In this document: piece by piece, positions 5,539-29,108 of the stretch
How the letters are laid out: every line of letters starts with the position of its first letter
Position numbering within the stretch: position 1 is the stretch's first letter
NCBI GenBank assembly: GCA_025360495.1
Contig: JANYCC010000252.1
Location: 1-40,540, forward strand
Length of the DNA stretch: 40,540 bases
Source: Verrucomicrobiota bacterium
GTDB taxonomy: Bacteria; Verrucomicrobiota; Verrucomicrobiia; Limisphaerales; UBA9464
Direction of reading: 5' to 3'
Notes under the pieces: model-generated
Database searches by the model: none
What the model was told of the DNA's origin: nothing
The model's input: only the letters and a program-made list of their open reading frames with translations
Position numbers and translations under genes: made by a program

Positions 5539-7599
5539 TCAGAACGAGTAACTCAGTTTCACCCGGAAAGCCCGGCCGTCCTGGACGATGGAATCCTGAC
5601 GGAGATCCGTGCCCACCGGATCGGCGAAACGGCGGTCGAACACATTGTAAATGGAGGCCGAAAGCTCGGCGCCCTTGGCCCAGCGGTACGCCAACAGGGT
5701 CACGTCCGCCTCGAAGTACCCGCCCGCCAGCCCACCTCGCGGCGTGATCCGACCGGACAGGTGGCGTCCGTCGATCCCGGCGAACAGGTGTTCCCGGTAG
5801 AGTGGCACGATCAGGGAACCCTGGACCATGTGCCGGGGCGAATTGCTGAGGGGTTGCCGGGTGTCCAGATCATGGGATTGCTGGTAGGCATAGCTGATGC
5901 GCCCCCGGAGACCGCTCTCCCAACGGCCCTCCAATTCCGCCTCCAACCCGATCGCCCGCGTCCGGGAGGTGTTCTGATAGACCAGCAGGTCATCGGCCGG
6001 ATCCGTGGTGAGCGTGATCAGGTCGGTGGCCTCATAAAGGAAGGCGGCGAGGGTGGTCTTATAATGGGGGCCGAGATCCTGTTCCCACACGGCCTCATAG
6101 GTCCGGATCTGTTCCGGCCGGAGACCGGAACTGGGTTTCTGGGTCTGATCGCCGTCCCCATAATACAATTCATAGGCGTTCGGGGCCCGGAATGCCGTGC
6201 CATAGAGAAGTTTCAGGTGGGTGCTGTCCCACGGGCGATAAACGGCGGCCAGCCGCGGGTTCCAGGAATTGGCCCGCCCCTCGTAATAATCATAGCGCAG
6301 GCCGGCGGAAAGCGTCAGGCGCGGATGAAGCCGCCATTCCGCCTCCGCATACGGCCCGAGCTGCATCGAGTGCCGGTGATCGTCCAATTGCCGGACGTAA
6401 GGGGCACGGTCCTCGGCGCTGAACTGGTCCTGGTGAAGGTTGTCCCGCACCTCCAGCCCCGCGGTCAGGGTCACCGTCTCCAGGAAGCTCCGTCGCACCA
6501 GCACATCCCCGCCCACCCATTCCGACCGGAAGCCATCCCGCAGCGGGTACGTGCCGGTGCCGCCCCCGGGCAGATCCTGTTCATAGATATAGGTCCCGTC
6601 ATAAGCCGAGAGGTTATAACTCAGGTTGGCGACCACCTGGATGCCGTTCTCGAGCGTCCGGTCCAGCCCCGCACGAAGGTAGTCCTTTCGGTCGTCGGTC
6701 TGCGTCCCGGCCGCCCCGAACACGGTGTCGAACGACGCGGTCGGGATGCGCTTGAAACGATCGACGTGCCCACCCTCGAGGGTGAGGCCCTTCCACGCCA
6801 AACGGGCATAGGCGCTCTGCGCTTCCTCCCGGTCCAGCCAATGGGCCACGCCGTCCGACTCGGGCGGATGGTCGAATTCGGGAAAGTACAGGCTGGGATG
6901 CCCGCCCCGGTCGAGCCAGGTGCCGGAGACCAGGAGGTCGACCTCGTTGTCCCATTTGTGGCCCAAGGTGAAACGCCCCTTGTAAGTGTCGTAGCTCCCG
7001 ACCTCGGCGGACGCCTGTCCGTAGCCGTAAGCCGCCCCGGCGCGGGTGACGACATTGACCACGCCGAACAGGGCGGAGCTGCCGTAGATGGCCGAGCCGG
7101 GACCGCGGACGACCTCGACGCGTTCGATCAGGTCGACGTCGACGGGGAATTCATTGCCGATGAGGGTGCCTTCGGTGACGCCGTCGGCGATGCGCTGGCC
7201 GTTGATCAGGAACAGGACCCGGGAATTGTAATCGCCGGGAGGGCTGAATCCGCGGGCGCCGAGATAGGAATAATTCCGGTCATTGGAAACATAGAATCCG
7301 CGGACCTGGCGGAGGATGTCGGCCAGCGAGGTGTAGCCGAGTTTCCGGATCTGGTCGCGGTCGACGATCGTCACCGAGGAAGGGGCCTCGGAGACGAGTT
7401 GATTGCGTTTGCTGGCGGCATCGACCGATTCCACACGGATTTCGAGGAGTTGATCGAGGGGCAGACCGGCCAGGTTGTCGGCGGGGTCGGGGGCGGGATT
7501 GGGATCGGGGGTGGGTGCTGCGGACAGGAGGAAGGGTGCCAGCGCGGGCAACCATCGCGCCAGACGGTACCACCCGGGGGTGTGGACACACATAGGCAT
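5539..7599 (-). CDS. TonB-dependent receptor
   Basis: Plug domain VTIVDRDQIRKLGYTSLADILRQVRGFYVSNDRNYSYLGARGF, VEVVRGPGSAIYGSSALFGVVNVVTR; C-terminal beta strand ending AFRVKLSYSF. Confidence 0.95.
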   Translation of the reverse strand: MPMCVHTPGWYRLARWLPALAPFLLSAAPTPDPNPAPDPADNLAGLPLDQLLEIRVESVDAASKRNQLVSEAPSSVTIVDRDQIRKLGYTSLADILRQVRGFYVSNDRNYSYLGARGFSPPGDYNSRVLFLINGQRIADGVTEGTLIGNEFPVDVDLIERVEVVRGPGSAIYGSSALFGVVNVVTRAGAAYGYGQASAEVGSYDTYKGRFTLGHKWDNEVDLLVSGTWLDRGGHPSLYFPEFDHPPESDGVAHWLDREEAQSAYARLAWKGLTLEGGHVDRFKRIPTASFDTVFGAAGTQTDDRKDYLRAGLDRTLENGIQVVANLSYNLSAYDGTYIYEQDLPGGGTGTYPLRDGFRSEWVGGDVLVRRSFLETVTLTAGLEVRDNLHQDQFSAEDRAPYVRQLDDHRHSMQLGPYAEAEWRLHPRLTLSAGLRYDYYEGRANSWNPRLAAVYRPWDSTHLKLLYGTAFRAPNAYELYYGDGDQTQKPSSGLRPEQIRTYEAVWEQDLGPHYKTTLAAFLYEATDLITLTTDPADDLLVYQNTSRTRAIGLEAELEGRWESGLRGRISYAYQQSHDLDTRQPLSNSPRHMVQGSLIVPLYREHLFAGIDGRHLSGRITPRGGLAGGYFEADVTLLAYRWAKGAELSASIYNVFDRRFADPVGTDLRQDSIVQDGRAFRVKLSYSF

Positions 7600-7667: not shown

Positions 7668-7687
7668 TTTGTGAAAAAGTTCACAAA
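7668..7687. promoter_or_regulatory. Candidate Rex (NADH/NAD+ sensing repressor) operator upstream of nuoB
   Basis: TTTGTGAA AAAG TTCACAAA: perfect 8-bp inverted arms with 4-nt spacer, matching known Rex consensus TTGTGAAnnnnTTCACAA; 72 bp before nuoB start. Confidence 0.78.
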
Positions 7688-7759
7688 AGCGTCTTGCAGC
7701 GTCGGAGGGCCAACCATAGTTTGCCGCGGTCTTTCCCCTGAGAGACCGCGCACACCCCT

Positions 7760-8368
7760 ATGGAGAGCCCAAGTTTGGTCCAGGCCGGCACGGTCGTGAC
7801 GACTGAGTTCGGCTACAATTCGAAGATCGAAGGCGAGGTGGTCCACACCCAGCTCGACTCCGCGCTCAATTGGTTTCGAAAGAACTCATTGTGGCCAATG
7901 CCCATGGGCCTGGCCTGCTGCGCCATCGAGCTCATGGCCGCCGGGGCCAGCCGGTTCGACATTTCGCGCTTCGGTTCCGAGGTCATGCGGTTCTCCCCCC
8001 GGCAATCCGACGTCATGATCGTGGCGGGGACGGTGACCTACAAGATGGCCTTGGCCCTGCGGCGCATTTATGAGCAGATGGCCGAGCCGAAATGGGTCAT
8101 CGCCATGGGTGCCTGCGCCTCCACCGGAGGCATGTACCGCAGCTATTCGGTGCTCCAAGGCGTCGATAACATCGTGCCGGTGGATGTGTATGTCGCCGGA
8201 TGCCCGCCCCGTCCCGAGGCGTTGCTGGATGCCTTGATCAAGCTTCAGGAAAAGGTCTCGCGCGAACCGATCACGCGCACCCTCAAGCGCGACAGCGGCC
8301 CGGAGAAATATGGCCGGCTGGGGATCGAGGTCACCGCGCAGAGCATCGAGGAAACCCGTTCGCATTGA
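7760..8368 (+). CDS. nuoB: NADH-quinone oxidoreductase subunit B
   Basis: [55 protein letters not shown]. Confidence 0.97.
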
Positions 8369-8384
8369 ACCCGACCCTGACCCC

Positions 8385-8966
8385 GTGCCCACCCCCCTTG
8401 AACTGGCCCGTCAATTACGGGAGACCTTCAGCGATCTGCTGGCGGAACCGCTGGAATTCCGCGGGGAAGTGACCTTGGTCGTCCGTGATCCGGAGCGCAT
8501 CGCCGAGGTGTGCCGGCACGCGAAGGAAACCCTGGGTTACGACCTGTTGCTGGACCTCAGCAGCGTGGACAACTACGGGGATGAGCCGCGTTGGACGGTG
8601 GTTTACGAACTTTACGGTCTGGCCCACGCCTGCCATCTGCGCCTGAAGACCAGTGTCGGCGAGGAAAAGGGGTCGGTGCCGACGGTGAGCACTGTCTGGC
8701 GCACCGCCGATTGGCATGAGCGCGAGGTGTACGACATGATGGGCATCCGATTCGCGGGTCACCCGGACCTGCGCCGAATCCTGATGTGGGAGGGTTACCC
8801 GTATCATCCGTTGCGGAAGGATTTCCCGTTGGCCGGCAAGCCCACCGATCTGCCCGAGGTGGCCTTCACCCGGGCGGCGCCCTTGGATGGCGGTCCGTTT
8901 GTCACGGTGGCGGGCGGGGCGGACAGCATCGCGCGCGAACCGCGTTCCCGGACCCCTGAGGATTGA
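8385..8966 (+). CDS. nuoC: NADH-quinone oxidoreductase subunit C (GTG start VPTPLELARQL)
   Basis: WHEREVYDMMGIRFAGHPDLRRILMWEGYPYHPLRKDFPL; ORF is open further upstream but coding similarity begins near 8385. Confidence 0.95.
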   Translation: MPTPLELARQLRETFSDLLAEPLEFRGEVTLVVRDPERIAEVCRHAKETLGYDLLLDLSSVDNYGDEPRWTVVYELYGLAHACHLRLKTSVGEEKGSVPTVSTVWRTADWHEREVYDMMGIRFAGHPDLRRILMWEGYPYHPLRKDFPLAGKPTDLPEVAFTRAAPLDGGPFVTVAGGADSIAREPRSRTPED

Positions 8967-8975
8967 TTCGTTCCC

Positions 8976-10280
8976 ATGGCCACTGCGCAAACCATCGAGT
9001 TCAAGGATCCCGGGATCCGGACGGCCGCCGCCGCAACCGCCGCCGCCGCGACCACCCTGGGTGCGGGTGACGACCTGCAGGATCTGCATGGCGAGAAACT
9101 GATCCTTAACATGGGTCCGTCGCATCCCTCGACCCACGGGGTCCTGCGGGTGGTGATCGAGTTGGATGGCGAGACGATCACCCGGGCGGTCCCCGACCTG
9201 GGATACCTTCATCGGGGGGACGAGAAAATCGCGGAGAACATGACCTACACCCAGTTCATTCCTTACACGGATCGACTGGATTACCTCGCCCCGCTGGCCA
9301 ACAACGTGGCCTACGCGCTGGCGGTCGAGAAGTTGCTGGGCATCCACGACCAACTGCCGCCGCGCTGCCAGTACATCCGCGTCATCTGCTGCGAACTGGC
9401 GCGGATCTCGGCCCATCTGCTGGGTCTGGGTGCGTTTGCGATGGATGTCGGGGCTTTGACGGTGTTCCTGCACACCTTCACCGAGCGCGAAAAGATTTAT
9501 AACCTGGCCGAGTGGCTCACCGGTGCGCGTTTCACCACGAGTTACACCCGGATCGGCGGACTGGCCCGCGACCTGCCCGCCGGTTGGGTGGGCAAGACCG
9601 GCAAATTCTGCGACGAGGTGCTGGTGGCGCTGGACGAGGTCGAGCGGCTCCTCACCCGCAATCGGATCTTCGTGGACCGCACCCGGGGCGTGGGGTCGAT
9701 TTCGAAGGCGGTGGCCGTGGATTATGGGCTGACCGGGCCGAACCTGCGGGCGTGCGGGGTGGACTATGATGTCCGCAAGGCAAACCCCTATCTGTGTTAC
9801 CGGGACTTGGAATTCGACATCCCGGTGGGCCAGGTCGGTGATTGCTATGACCGTTACATGGTGCGGATGGAGGAGATGCGCCAGAGCGTGCGGATCCTGC
9901 GCCAGGCGTTGCAGAAGCTTCCCGGCGGCCCGGACAATGCCGGACGTGAGCCGGTGAACGTGGCCGATGGCAAGGTGGTGCTCCCGCCCAAGGAGAAGGT
10001 TCTCACGAGCATGGAGGAACTCATCCACCAGTTCATGCTGGTGACGCAGGGGGTGAACGCGCCGCCGGGGGAAATCTATTTCGGCGCCGAGAATCCGAAG
10101 GGCGAACTCGGCTTCTTCATCCACAGCCGCGGCGGTGGAACCCCTTACCGGATGAAGATCCGGGCCCCGTCTTTTGTGAATCTCGGCATCCTGCCCACGC
10201 TCCTGCCCGGGCATCTCATGAGCGATGTCGTGTCGATCCTCGGGTCGATCGATTTCGTGATGGGCGAGGCCGACCGGTGA
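8976..10280 (+). CDS. nuoD: NADH-quinone oxidoreductase subunit D
   Basis: LNMGPSHPSTHGVLRVVIELDGETI, GYLHRGDEKIAENMTYTQFIPYTDRLDYLAP, C-terminal DVVSILGSIDFVMGEADR. Confidence 0.97.
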   Translation: MATAQTIEFKDPGIRTAAAATAAAATTLGAGDDLQDLHGEKLILNMGPSHPSTHGVLRVVIELDGETITRAVPDLGYLHRGDEKIAENMTYTQFIPYTDRLDYLAPLANNVAYALAVEKLLGIHDQLPPRCQYIRVICCELARISAHLLGLGAFAMDVGALTVFLHTFTEREKIYNLAEWLTGARFTTSYTRIGGLARDLPAGWVGKTGKFCDEVLVALDEVERLLTRNRIFVDRTRGVGSISKAVAVDYGLTGPNLRACGVDYDVRKANPYLCYRDLEFDIPVGQVGDCYDRYMVRMEEMRQSVRILRQALQKLPGGPDNAGREPVNVADGKVVLPPKEKVLTSMEELIHQFMLVTQGVNAPPGEIYFGAENPKGELGFFIHSRGGGTPYRMKIRAPSFVNLGILPTLLPGHLMSDVVSILGSIDFVMGEADR

Positions 10281-10777
10281 AATCCCCCGCCATGGCGTTT
10301 TCCGTACCCGCGAAACTGGAGGCTGAGCTCGATGAACTGGTGACCCACTATCCGCAGAAGCGGAGTGCGTCGCTGATGTTCCTCCACGCCTTGCAGGAAC
10401 ACTTCGGCCATCTGCCCAGGGAGGCGGTGGAATGGACCGCGGTGAAACTGGGATTGCAACCGATCAACGTGCACGAGTTGGTCACGTTCTACCCGATGTT
10501 CCGCCAGGAACCGCTGGGTCGCACCCAGATCAAGGTGTGCCGGACGCTGAGTTGCGCGATGGCGGGGAGCGGGGAACTGCGCGGGCATTTCTGCGGGAAG
10601 CTGGGACTGGACCCGCATCATCACGGGCCGCAGACAACACCCGACGGGAAGTTCACCGTGGAATTTGTCGAGTGCCTGGCCAGTTGCGGGACCGCACCGG
10701 TCGTGCTGGTCAATGACGACCTGCTGGAGAAATGCACCGTGGCCGATTGCGACCGGGTGCTGGCCCAGGGCCGGTGA
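10277..10777 (+). CDS. nuoE: NADH-quinone oxidoreductase subunit E (thioredoxin-like 2Fe-2S)
   Basis: CRTLSCAM ... VECLASCGTAPVVLVND; overlaps nuoD stop by 4 nt. Confidence 0.95.
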   Translation: MKSPAMAFSVPAKLEAELDELVTHYPQKRSASLMFLHALQEHFGHLPREAVEWTAVKLGLQPINVHELVTFYPMFRQEPLGRTQIKVCRTLSCAMAGSGELRGHFCGKLGLDPHHHGPQTTPDGKFTVEFVECLASCGTAPVVLVNDDLLEKCTVADCDRVLAQGR

Positions 10778-12467: not shown

Positions 12468-14183
12468 ATGTCGAACGCCGCGACCACCGCCCCCGCGCCC
12501 GCCGCCCCGCCCCCGGTCGAGAAGATCCGGATCCGGGTCGATGGCCGTGAGATCGACGTGCCCAAGACCCTGCCGGACTGGCAGGGCAAGCCGCAGGCCA
12601 CGACGATGCTGCAGGCCTGTCATCTCGCCGGCTGCGAGGTGCCGCATTATTGCTATCATCCGAAGCTCCCGGTCGCGGGCAACTGCCGGATGTGCCTGGT
12701 GGAATTCGGCACGCCGGTCATGGATCCGGCCACGCGCAAGCCGGTCCTGAACGAGGACGGTTCGCCGAAGATCGCCCGTTCGGTCCTGCCCTACGAACCG
12801 CAGACCCCGCGCGGTGCCATCGCCTGCGCCACCCCCATTTCACCGGGCATGGAACTCTACCCGGGTTCCCCCGCGACCAAACAGATGCGCGAGGCGGTCT
12901 TGGAATCGCTGCTCATCAATCATCCGCTCGACTGCCCCATCTGCGACCAGGCCGGCGAATGCAAGCTGCAGGAATATTCCGTGCAGCACGGGCAGGCCGG
13001 GAGCCGTTTCGTCGAGGCCAAGGTGCATAAGCCCAAGGCCGTCGACCTCGGGCCCCGGATCGTTCTCGACGACGAACGCTGCATCCTGTGCACCCGCTGC
13101 ATCCGGTTCACCAAGGACATCGCGGGCGACGACGCGCTCGGGATCGTCAACAGCGGATCCTATAACACGATCGCCACTTTCCCGGGACGGCCGTTCGACA
13201 ACAATTACACGCTCAACACCGTCGACCTCTGCCCGGTCGGCGCGCTCACGTCCAAGGATTTCCGGTTCAAGATGCGGGTGTGGTTCCTGCGCGAGACCCG
13301 CAGCGTGTGCACCAGTTGCGGCAGCGGTTGCAACATCACCATCGGATCGCGCGAGGACACCGTTCACCGCTATGAACCGCGGGAAAACGACGCGGTGAAT
13401 TCCAGCTGGATGTGCGATTCCGGCCGCCTGAATTACCGGTGGATCGGGCGACCGGACCGGTTGCAGAACGTCTTGGTGAACGGCATCAAATCGACTTGGA
13501 AAGCGGCGCTCACCGAGATCGGTTCCCGGCTCACCGCGGCTCCGGCCGGCAGCGTGGCCCTGGTCGCCAGCGCGCGCCAGACGTGTGAGGAACTTTACCT
13601 GTTGAAACGGCTCGCGACCCGGTTGGGCGCGGTCACCGACTCGGTCCCGCGGGAAGGGGAGGGCGACCGGTTGTTGGTGGCGGAGGACCGCAACCCCAAC
13701 AGCAATGGCGCGCGTCTGACCGGCATCTGCTATACGGAGATGGGACTGCAATTGCCGCGCATCGCCGACGGGATCCGCAGCGGCGCGATCCGGACCCTGG
13801 TGGTGTTCGGCGAGGACGTGACCCTCCACGGCATCGGACCCGACCTGCTCGCGAAATTGGAGACGCTGGTGGTGAGCGACATCCTGCCGAACGCGACGAC
13901 GGCGGCCGCGCATTATGTGTTGCCGGGTTGTGCGCACGCGGAGAAGCGGGGGACCTTCGTGAACGTGAAGGGACGCCTGCAACGGTTCCTGAAGGCGGTC
14001 GAACCGAAAGGGGACGGCCGGCCCGAAGCGGAATTCCTGCAGGAACTGGCGGCCGGCCTCGGGGTCGGCGGTGGTCATGCGACGATCGAGGGTTTGTTCA
14101 ACCAGATGGCGAAGGACGTGCCGGCCTTCGCGGGGGTCGAATGGGCCCACCTTGGCGACACCGGAGTCAACGTGCCGATCTGA
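12468..14183 (+). CDS. nuoG: NADH-quinone oxidoreductase subunit G, short form (571 aa)
   Basis: N-terminal 2Fe-2S (GCEVPHYCYHPKLPVAGNCRMCLVEFG), His-Cys cluster (HPLDCPICDQAGECKLQ), 4Fe-4S (CILCTRCIRF), CTSCGSGC-x27-C. Confidence 0.94.
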   Translation: MSNAATTAPAPAAPPPVEKIRIRVDGREIDVPKTLPDWQGKPQATTMLQACHLAGCEVPHYCYHPKLPVAGNCRMCLVEFGTPVMDPATRKPVLNEDGSPKIARSVLPYEPQTPRGAIACATPISPGMELYPGSPATKQMREAVLESLLINHPLDCPICDQAGECKLQEYSVQHGQAGSRFVEAKVHKPKAVDLGPRIVLDDERCILCTRCIRFTKDIAGDDALGIVNSGSYNTIATFPGRPFDNNYTLNTVDLCPVGALTSKDFRFKMRVWFLRETRSVCTSCGSGCNITIGSREDTVHRYEPRENDAVNSSWMCDSGRLNYRWIGRPDRLQNVLVNGIKSTWKAALTEIGSRLTAAPAGSVALVASARQTCEELYLLKRLATRLGAVTDSVPREGEGDRLLVAEDRNPNSNGARLTGICYTEMGLQLPRIADGIRSGAIRTLVVFGEDVTLHGIGPDLLAKLETLVVSDILPNATTAAAHYVLPGCAHAEKRGTFVNVKGRLQRFLKAVEPKGDGRPEAEFLQELAAGLGVGGGHATIEGLFNQMAKDVPAFAGVEWAHLGDTGVNVPI

Positions 14184-14195
14184 CCGGGAATCCCC

Positions 14196-15305
14196 ATGTT
14201 CGAGACGCTATTTTCAGATCCGACGGTGCAGTTCATCGCGTTCAGCACGGTGAAGATCCTGGTGGTCTTCGGCGTGGTGATGACCTTCGTCGCCTATGCC
14301 GTGCTGGTGGAGCGGAAGGTCTCGGCCTTCATCCAGGACCGGGTGGGACCGAACCGCACCGCGCCGCCGTTCGTGATGAAGATCCCGGTGATCGGGCCGT
14401 TCCTGGTCCGCTGCGGTATTTTCCAGCCGATGGCGGACGGGTTGAAATTCATCCTGAAGGAGGATTTCACGCCGGATTATGTGCGGAAGGTCTATTTCTG
14501 GCTGGCGCCGGCGATCGCGGTGATCCCGGCGTTCCTGACCCTGGCGGTGATCCCGTTCGGCTCGCAGTTGAGCGCGGGACCCGGCGCGCAGAAGATGGTC
14601 ATCGCCGACCTGAACGTCGGCATCCTTTATACGTTCGGCATCGTGTCGCTCGGAGTGTACGGCATCGTGCTGGCGGGTTGGTCCTCCAATTCCAAGTACC
14701 CGTTCCTCGGCGGCATCCGGTCGAGCGCGCAGATGATCTCCTATGAGCTGGCGATGGGGATGAGCGTGGTGGCGGTGTTCCTGGTGGTGGGCGACCTGAA
14801 CCTGGGGAAGATCGTCAGGTTCCAGGCGGAACACGGCTGGATGATCCTTTATCAGCCGGTGGCCTTCCTGCTGTTCCTGGTGTCGGCGTTTGCGGAGACG
14901 AACCGGCTGCCCTTCGACATGCCGGAGTCGGAAAGCGAGTTGGTGGGTGGTTACCACACCGAATACAGCTCGATGAAGTTCGCGCTCTTTTTCCTGGGCG
15001 AATACGCGAACATGATCGCGAGTTCGGCGATGATGGTGACGCTGTTTTTGGGCGGATGGTCGCTGCCATTCCTCGGGGAGCCGGCAGGTTCGCTGTGGGG
15101 CGGCCTGCTGCACCTGGGGATCTTCGTGGCGAAAATGCTGGTGATGCTGGTGGTGTTCATCTGGGTGCGCTGGATGCTGCCGCGCTTCCGTTATGACCAG
15201 TTGATGGACCTGGGTTGGCGCCGGTTCATACCGCTCGCACTGGCCAACATCGTGGTGACCGCGCTGGTGCTGGCGCTGGTGGACGGCTGGGGGAAAGGGA
15301 CCTGA
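14196..15305 (+). CDS. nuoH: NADH-quinone oxidoreductase subunit H
   Basis: ERKVSAFIQDRVGPNRT, PMADGLKFILKEDFTP, AFAETNRLPFDMPESESELVGGYHTEYSSMKFALFFLGEYANM. Confidence 0.97.
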   Translation: MFETLFSDPTVQFIAFSTVKILVVFGVVMTFVAYAVLVERKVSAFIQDRVGPNRTAPPFVMKIPVIGPFLVRCGIFQPMADGLKFILKEDFTPDYVRKVYFWLAPAIAVIPAFLTLAVIPFGSQLSAGPGAQKMVIADLNVGILYTFGIVSLGVYGIVLAGWSSNSKYPFLGGIRSSAQMISYELAMGMSVVAVFLVVGDLNLGKIVRFQAEHGWMILYQPVAFLLFLVSAFAETNRLPFDMPESESELVGGYHTEYSSMKFALFFLGEYANMIASSAMMVTLFLGGWSLPFLGEPAGSLWGGLLHLGIFVAKMLVMLVVFIWVRWMLPRFRYDQLMDLGWRRFIPLALANIVVTALVLALVDGWGKGT

Positions 15306-15914: not shown

Positions 15915-16433
15915 ATGCCAGAATTCACCGACCTGCTTTTTTTCGTGTTCGCCGGGCTGACCCTGTTGTTCGGGTTCCTGTGCGTGGCCAATCCACTCAG
16001 CCGGAACCCGGTCACCAGCGCGATGTTCCTCGTCCTCACCATCATCTCGATGGCGGGATTGTTCGTGCTGCTTCACGCCTTCTTCCTCGCGGCGGTCCAG
16101 ATCCTCGTTTATGCCGGCGCGGTCATGGTCGTCTTCCTCTTCGTGATCATGCTGCTCGATCTCAAGGAGGAGGCCCGCCGGAAACTCAACCGCGTCGCGC
16201 TCACCGCCGGGGTCCTCGCCGTGTCCGGCCTGGCCGCGATCCTCGTCCGCGCCGTCACCGCCGCCCGCCCCGCCGCCCTCGCCCTCAAGGCCGGGCCGCT
16301 CGCCGAGGGTGACACCGCACCGCTCGGCCGCATCCTCTTCCAATCCTACCTCCTCCCGTTCGAGATCCTGTCGATCCTGCTCCTGGTGGCGATGGTCGGC
16401 GTCATCCTGCTCAGCAAAAAGGATCTCCGGTAG
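15915..16433 (+). CDS. nuoJ: NADH-quinone oxidoreductase subunit J
   Basis: Hydrophobic, [53 protein letters not shown]. Confidence 0.94.
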
Positions 16434-27314: not shown

Positions 27315-29108
27315 TCATTCCGGTTTGGTCTCGCCGAAGCGGGCCCCGGAAAAATCCAACCGGTAGATCATCCCCTCGAAGCCGACCGCATAAATGTTGC
27401 CCGCCTCGTCGGTCCCGAAGGAGACGAGTCCCTGCGGGATGCTCCCGATCTGTCGGACCGTCTTGAGCAGGCCGTTTTCCCGGGTCAGGCCGAAGATCCG
27501 CTTGGAGGTGTAATCACCGAAGATATAAACCCCGTAAAAGGACGATTGCCGGTCGCCGCGATAGACATGCCCGCCGGTGATCGAATTGCCATATTTCCGC
27601 TTATAGGCGAAGAGGGGCGGCGTATAAGCCATGCCCTCCTTGCGATATTGGTTGGAGAACGGTTCGAAGGCCTCGTACACGTTCCAGCCGTAATTCTGCC
27701 CGCGTTGAACGATGTCCACCTCCTCCACCCGGTCCTGTCCGACGTCCGCCAGCCACAGTTCGCCGGTGACCCGATCAAAACTGAAGCGCCAGGGTTCGCG
27801 GAAACCGTACGCCCAAATCTCCGGGCGCGCATCCGTCCGGCCGCGGAACGGATTGTCGGCGGGGATGGCATAAGCCAGGTCGCCCTCGGTCCGGTCCACG
27901 TCGATCCGCATCATTTTGCCGAGCAACAATTGCAGGTTTTGGGCGTGGCCGTTGGGATCATTATGCGGTCCCGTGTCGCCCATGCCGAAATAGAGGAAGC
28001 CGTCCGGACCGAATTGCAGGCAACCGCCGCTGTGATCCTCGGCCACGCTCCGGATTTTCAGCAAGGGACGGGGCGGTTGACCGGAATCATGCCGGAAATC
28101 CGCCGCGAACCGCTTCTCGACGATGTGCGTGGTGACCCTGCCCTCCGCGAACGTCTGATACTTCAGGTAATACTTCCGATTCTCGCGGAATTTCGGGTGA
28201 AAGGCCAGGCCGAGCAGACCGTTCGGTCCGCGATCGCTGAAGACCTCCTGGGTCAGGTCGGCGAACACGGTCTTCTCCTCGGCCGTCGCGGTCTTCTCCA
28301 TCATCCAGATCATCCCCTTCTGGTGGAGCACCAGGAAAACATTGCTGAGGCCGGGAACCTGATGGAAAGAGGTCAGTCCCGTCTGGACCTTGGCCGGGGG
28401 GACGCGGAGTTCCTGGGTGAAGAAGGGTTGCGCCGTCACCGGTCGGGCCAGTTCGGGGATGGTGCCAGGCATCCCCTGATGGGCGACCAGCGCACTCTCC
28501 GGCTGCTTCAGGGTGGCGAGGTATTCTATGACATCGGTGAATTGCTGGGGCGACAGTCCCGCCTGCAATCCCTCGGGCATGAGCGAGACGCTGCTGCCCC
28601 GCTGCCGTTGGATGTCGGCCGTGGCGAGCGTCACCAGTTTGCCATCCGCACCCATCAACTGGATGCCGGCATCGGTCGACTGCTTGAGAATGCCCTGGTA
28701 TTCCACGCCGGCTTTGGTCTCGACGATGATCGCGCCATAGCCTGGGGAAATCACGGCCGAGGGCAGGAGCACGGCATCCACGAGATCGCGGCGCCCGAAC
28801 TTGTCGCCCACCGCCAGGAGATCGGGTCCGGCCTTGCCTCCGCGTCCATCCAGCGAGTGGCACTTGGAACAGGCGAGCTTCTGGTCATCCGCGAAGAGGC
28901 GGGCTCCGTTCGCGACATTCCCATCATGGGTCCACGCGAACCGGCGGTAATCTTCCACGCTCGGAGTCGGGGCCGATCCCGGGGTTGCGGGGGCTTGGGC
29001 GAATCCGGCGAGGCCACCAGCCCATACGGAGCCGAGCGCCAGGGAGGCAGAGAGGAAACGGGGGGTCACGATTTTCAAAGGATCGCCAAAAGTGGGGATG
29101 GTGACCAA
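27315..29108 (-). CDS. Cytochrome c / PQQ-dependent sugar dehydrogenase-like fusion protein
   Basis: Single heme motif CSKCHSLDGRGGKAGPDL; GSDH-like NGLLGLAFHPKFRENRKYYLKY, GGCLQFGPDGFLYFGMGDTGPHNDPNGHAQN, EIWAYGFREPWRFSFD; signal peptide near N-terminus. Confidence 0.88.
   Translation of the reverse strand: MVTIPTFGDPLKIVTPRFLSASLALGSVWAGGLAGFAQAPATPGSAPTPSVEDYRRFAWTHDGNVANGARLFADDQKLACSKCHSLDGRGGKAGPDLLAVGDKFGRRDLVDAVLLPSAVISPGYGAIIVETKAGVEYQGILKQSTDAGIQLMGADGKLVTLATADIQRQRGSSVSLMPEGLQAGLSPQQFTDVIEYLATLKQPESALVAHQGMPGTIPELARPVTAQPFFTQELRVPPAKVQTGLTSFHQVPGLSNVFLVLHQKGMIWMMEKTATAEEKTVFADLTQEVFSDRGPNGLLGLAFHPKFRENRKYYLKYQTFAEGRVTTHIVEKRFAADFRHDSGQPPRPLLKIRSVAEDHSGGCLQFGPDGFLYFGMGDTGPHNDPNGHAQNLQLLLGKMMRIDVDRTEGDLAYAIPADNPFRGRTDARPEIWAYGFREPWRFSFDRVTGELWLADVGQDRVEEVDIVQRGQNYGWNVYEAFEPFSNQYRKEGMAYTPPLFAYKRKYGNSITGGHVYRGDRQSSFYGVYIFGDYTSKRIFGLTRENGLLKTVRQIGSIPQGLVSFGTDEAGNIYAVGFEGMIYRLDFSGARFGETKPE

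Follow-up and report, generated by a model that had tools for sequence, protein, structure and literature searches.

Gene context of the nuoB upstream site

The window (the whole stretch of DNA analysed here, 40,540 nucleotides) comes from a Limisphaerales/Pedosphaera-like member of the Verrucomicrobiota, and not from an actinobacterium; its genome is 5.8 Mb in 482 contigs. It carries a complex I operon that begins with nuoB, and a divergently oriented gene for a TonB-dependent receptor (Table 1). The window opens with atpD (60-1019) and, since atpG lies at the end of contig C163, the atp operon probably runs on from that contig into the window, where it adjoins nuo. Between the ATG codons of nuoB (7760) and the receptor gene (7599) stands the palindrome TTTGTGAA-AAAG-TTCACAAA, 73 bp 5' of the nuoB start. 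The window reads TTTGTGAAAAAGTTCACAAA at exactly this place, with the AAAG spacer set between two perfect 8-bp arms, and the core has no mismatch to the Rex operator (ROP) consensus TTGTGAAnnnnTTCACAA (PMC5355995, PMC2883068), which confirms the perfect palindrome and consensus match reported in the initial annotation of this DNA.

Table 1. Coordinates of the features discussed; positions are those of the window unless a locus (L) is named.
Feature	Position	Strand	Evidence or remark
TonB-dependent receptor gene, divergent neighbour, probably no target	5539..7599	-	TIGR01785, E 6e-48
Rex operator (ROP), predicted; 18-bp core TTGTGAA-AAAG-TTCACAA	7668..7687, core 7669-7686	.	sequence, unique in window, conserved, co-occurs with Rex
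Predicted -35, TTGCAG	7694..7699	+	conservation; 7 bp downstream of operator core
Predicted -10, TAGTTT	7717..7722	+	conservation; 17-bp spacer
nuoB, first gene of complex I operon	7760..8368	+	NCBIfam NF011390, E 1.6e-99, above cut-off
nuoC, start codon approximate	8385..8966	+	TIGR01961, above cut-off
nuoD	8976..10280	+	TIGR01962, above cut-off
nuoE	10277..10777	+	TIGR01958, E 5e-37
nuoG	12468..14183	+	TIGR01973, E 6e-124
nuoH	14196..15305	+	NF004741, above its cut-off
nuoJ	15915..16433	+	NF005164, E 1e-34
Rex-type motif TTGTGAAACATTTCACGA	L010 7031-7048 (= G000:C163:17030-17047)		90 bp 5' of atpB
Motif TTGTGATTTTTTTCACGA	L012 2446-2463 (G000:C240)		before alternative complex III operon
orf232, conserved exported protein	L011 1905-2603	-	C-terminus weakly carboxypeptidase-regulatory-like; heads ctaA-ctaB, with a Rex motif 5' of it

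Scanning the window with TTGTGAANNNNTTCACAA and allowing up to three mismatches returned this site as the sole match, at a threshold loose enough that shuffling gives an expectation of 0.49. From base composition (64% G+C), the expected number of perfect consensus matches is about 1e-5 for the window and 0.002 for the 5.8-Mb genome. Palindromy alone means little here, since roughly one arbitrary inverted repeat with 8-bp arms and a 4-base loop is expected in every window; the significance lies in the agreement with the Rex consensus and in its conservation. That background of inverted repeats would favor a chance palindrome, to which we assign a negligible probability given the rarity of consensus matches and the co-occurrence with Rex described below; the conservation data refute it.

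The operator lies in the promoter of an operon for NADH and energy metabolism, beside a conserved -35 and -10. A generic sigma-70 scan returned no promoter in the nuoB upstream region, and the assignment of these two elements therefore rests on conservation. Of 58 nuoB promoters, 54 have CTTG 5-8 bp downstream of the operator (shuffles: mean 1.6, maximum 6), and 44 have TA at the -10 spacing (shuffles: mean 0.4). Some 51 bp separate the center of the nuo operator from the predicted transcript start downstream, which by homology would be near 7729.

The initial annotation also proposed that the operator could affect the TonB receptor gene, and the two genes do share the intergenic region, with the operator 69 bp from the receptor's start codon. 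Of the compared loci, however, just 5 have a homologous gene beside nuoB, all of them from close relatives, and where it is absent the operator is kept along with the -35 and -10 that face nuoB. The proposal is thus unsupported, and we find it hardly credible that the site mainly controls the receptor gene.

Conservation of the site and its co-occurrence with Rex

The initial annotation had taken the palindrome for a near-ideal Rex operator in front of the complex I operon, to be checked by looking for a Rex homolog in the genome, for conservation upstream of nuo in relatives, and for further copies before NADH-linked genes. The host genome does encode Rex, as a single protein on contig C87 with PF06971 (E 7e-18) and a CoA_binding Rossmann domain, scoring above the cut-offs of the NCBIfam Rex models NF003995, NF003993, and NF003992. 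It aligns over its full length with solved Rex proteins and keeps both their recognition region, QLRKDLTYFGQFGTRGLGY (QxRKDLxYFGxxGTRGxGY), and their nucleotide-binding motifs, GVGNLG and FDADP. Rex of this clade is encoded at L009 4866-5498.

Using 0-1 mismatch to TTGTGA-N6-TCACAA to define a conserved site, we found that each of the 24 genomes examined from the genus and family has one 5' of nuoB, at a nearly constant distance. Among named public genomes it is present at 36 of the closest 80 nuoB loci, in records whose titles include Limisphaerales, Pedosphaera, and subdivision-3 Verrucomicrobia; it is missing at nuoB where the record title names Opitutales, Chthoniobacterales, or Methylacidiphilum. 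The second nuo copy of some genomes, which is more distant (∼50-68% NuoB identity), carries the site in 0 of the 12 cases examined. Most members of the order read TTGTGAAAAAAATCACAA at the inner positions, so that the strictly kept part is TTGTGA-N6-TCACAA only; at nuoB almost every site keeps the outer T of TTGTGA, as is expected for Rex.

Rex scores over cut-off in 59 of 189 genomes of the class, and because only about a third encode it, its co-occurrence with the site is testable. Within the order, leaving the family aside, the site is found in 24/24 genomes with an orthologous Rex and in 2/11 without one, the other nine lacking it (p ∼8e-7, relatedness ignored). Conservation at nuoB and this co-occurrence, with the site present in every family relative and following Rex across the order, support the operator as annotated. 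Elsewhere in the class the site is absent from nuoB in all 22 Rex-less genomes and present in 9 of 25 Rex-bearing ones, the other 16 having none, and we conclude that a site at nuoB is characteristic of this order and sporadic in the rest of the class. Motif copies with 0-1 mismatch, counted at any position, average 4.2 per genome with Rex versus 0.95 without (p ∼3e-6, relatedness ignored); a reversed control motif gives 0.35.

Individual genomes add detail to these counts. Within family f18, G187 has both Rex and the site and G059 has neither. In G137, G178, and G022, whose assemblies are incomplete, the site is present and rex was undetected; G137 has four motif copies. Two apparent exceptions were explained: in G032 a contig break interrupts nuoB, whose actual upstream region carries a perfect site, and the only Rex of G183 is a divergent, non-orthologous copy (34% identity) beside a second nuo cluster (L305, contig C22), in a genome that has neither an orthologous Rex nor a nuoB operator. 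Separately, G097 has two more Rex-domain matches on opposite strands of one contig (C21, 29398-30138), and a perfect motif, TTGTGAAATTTTTCACAA, lies ∼0.6 kb from them (28794-28811), which suggests an additional Rex paralog with its own operator.

The palindrome also reads TGTGA-N6-TCACA, the CRP core at the exact CRP spacing, and an N6 spacer would also accommodate the inner positions that the order conserves. A CRP/FNR-family regulator could therefore be considered as its ligand, and the host genome encodes one full protein of this family (C35), adjoining an SCO1-like gene. Its recognition helix is SETLSR, however, which is nearer the FNR type (E..SR, TTGAT half-site) than CRP (RETVGR). The distribution of such proteins also argues against this reading: across 18 site-bearing and 8 site-less genomes of the order, the site does not co-occur with a CRP-type regulator, a full over-cut-off HTH_Crp_2 being present in 6/18 versus 6/8 (Fisher p 0.09, in the opposite direction), and G044, G146, G156, and G178 keep the site with no HTH_Crp_2 match at all. 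Given in addition the near-invariant outer T that Rex predicts, we regard a CRP/FNR-family site as very unlikely.

Four operons and two promoter arrangements

For regulon counts we used the strict motif TYGTGANNNNNNTCACRA in 18 family genomes, with the reversed pattern as control, and obtained 66 matches versus 1. Fifty-four of the 66 precede four operons (nuo, 17; orf232-cta, 16; act, 15; atp, 6); the remaining 12 are scattered, and those inspected are mostly within coding sequence and have G+C-rich spacers. The window's own genome, searched by pattern, has four strict matches, which are exactly those before nuo, act, orf232-ctaA-ctaB, and atp, so that the further copies sought by the initial annotation are present before other respiratory operons. 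With up to 2 mismatches the own-genome scan gave 7 motif and 6 control matches, no enrichment, and for this reason the strict motif alone was used. No match with 0-2 mismatches lies on the rex contig in the own-genome pattern scan, and thus none that would mark rex for autoregulation.

The act match precedes actA-actB of alternative complex III, with a TAT-variant molybdopterin oxidoreductase above the TIGR04519 cut-off. The match at orf232 lies 5' of a gene for a conserved exported protein, after which come ctaA and, in the window's genome, ctaB (cytochrome-oxidase haem maturation), and the last precedes atpB of the F-ATPase operon. In a further genome, G003, the nuo and atp operators are 7 kb apart on a single contig (L306). 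These motif copies before the respiratory and ATP-synthase operons point to an NADH-linked control of the whole respiratory chain.

The operators fall into two positions relative to the predicted promoters. The orf232-cta promoters are arranged as at nuo, with CTTG 5-8 bp after the operator in 16/16. At actA, by contrast, CTTGC is found 11-16 bp before the operator in 15/15, so that the operator covers the predicted -10; the 18-mer that overlies it, TTGTGATTTTTTTCACGA, is identical in nearly all family genomes examined. Rex would accordingly be placed to occlude the -10 at act, but at nuo and cta it would adjoin the -35 on its upstream side.

A predicted Rex regulon for respiration

We consider it very probable that the 20-mer is an operator of the NADH/NAD+-sensing Rex encoded on C87 and that this protein controls nuo, act, orf232-cta, and atp. 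At low NADH/NAD+, Rex would occupy the operator and transcription of nuoB-N would be held down; accumulating NADH would bind Rex and take it off the DNA, allowing complex I to be made and NADH to be reoxidised, which, we infer, could constitute a "direct redox feedback" on NADH oxidation. Its predicted reach extends to act (alternative complex III), orf232-ctaA-ctaB, and atp as well, and with one Rex on all four operons, the respiratory chain and the ATP synthase would be tuned together. Rex binding, its release by NADH, and repression as the sign are taken from known Rex biochemistry, and since the nuo operator falls immediately 5' of the predicted -35, repression at that promoter is a presumed sign.

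Known Rex proteins are mainly repressors. An activating or dual role, with Rex in an activator position near the -35 at nuo and cta and necessarily repressing from the -10 at act, would fit the rigid conservation of both geometries (54/58 at nuo, 16/16 at cta, 15/15 at act), and an activator just upstream of the -35 could contact RNA polymerase. A Rex footprint of 27-29 bp (PMC5355995) would reach the edge of the -35, making occlusion possible there as well, and the start sites are predicted ones; overall, we judge activation or a dual role to be unlikely. A fuller proposal seems to us similarly doubtful: that oxidative phosphorylation in this lineage has Rex as its dedicated coordinator, whose sign differs or is even opposite between the two geometries, with activation or modulation from a position 5' of the -35 at nuo and cta, and repression from the -10 at act. 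Rex as an NADH-released repressor remains the favored reading. The rigid promoter geometries lend themselves to a clean test of the way in which the position of Rex determines its regulatory sign, and the compact predicted regulon of four operons is testable with one purified protein.

A literature search on Rex in Verrucomicrobiota, and on its connection with alternative complex III, returned nothing on point, a Rex-regulon comparison in J Bacteriol from 2012, reportedly a broad one, being outside its reach. As far as the literature searched shows, what is new is the occurrence in this phylum, act (alternative complex III) and orf232-cta as predicted targets, and the pair of promoter geometries, each of them fixed. 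Our findings would bring respiration under Rex in a group of Verrucomicrobiota that is abundant and mostly uncultured, and they supply a predicted regulator for the operon of alternative complex III.

Rex control of nuo and atp is already known from Streptomyces avermitilis, where Rex binds and represses nuoA1-N1 and atpIBEFHAGDC via the same consensus and responds to NADH/NAD+, as established by EMSA, ChIP, and footprinting (PMC5355995). The two systems are thus alike in their operator consensus and in nuo and atp, which are direct Rex targets there and motif-marked here, but in S. avermitilis cydABCD, rex-hem, ndh2, and hppA are also targets (PMC5355995), whereas here we saw no motif in the vicinity of rex, and the marked operons instead include orf232-ctaA-ctaB and that of alternative complex III. 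The nuo operator is also placed differently, over the -35/-10 in S. avermitilis (footprint -42 to -16, PMC5355995) and here further upstream, just before the predicted -35. CRP sites share the core letters and spacing of TGTGA-N6-TCACA, but the presence of the site here follows Rex and not CRP/FNR-family proteins. The Rex operator of Staphylococcus aureus, TTGTGAAW4TTCACAA, is near-identical to ours, and the Rex fold is likewise shared with S. aureus and other Firmicutes (PMC2883068), but Firmicutes Rex regulons comprise mainly fermentative and anaerobic genes (PMC2883068), whereas the genes marked here are those of aerobic oxidative phosphorylation.
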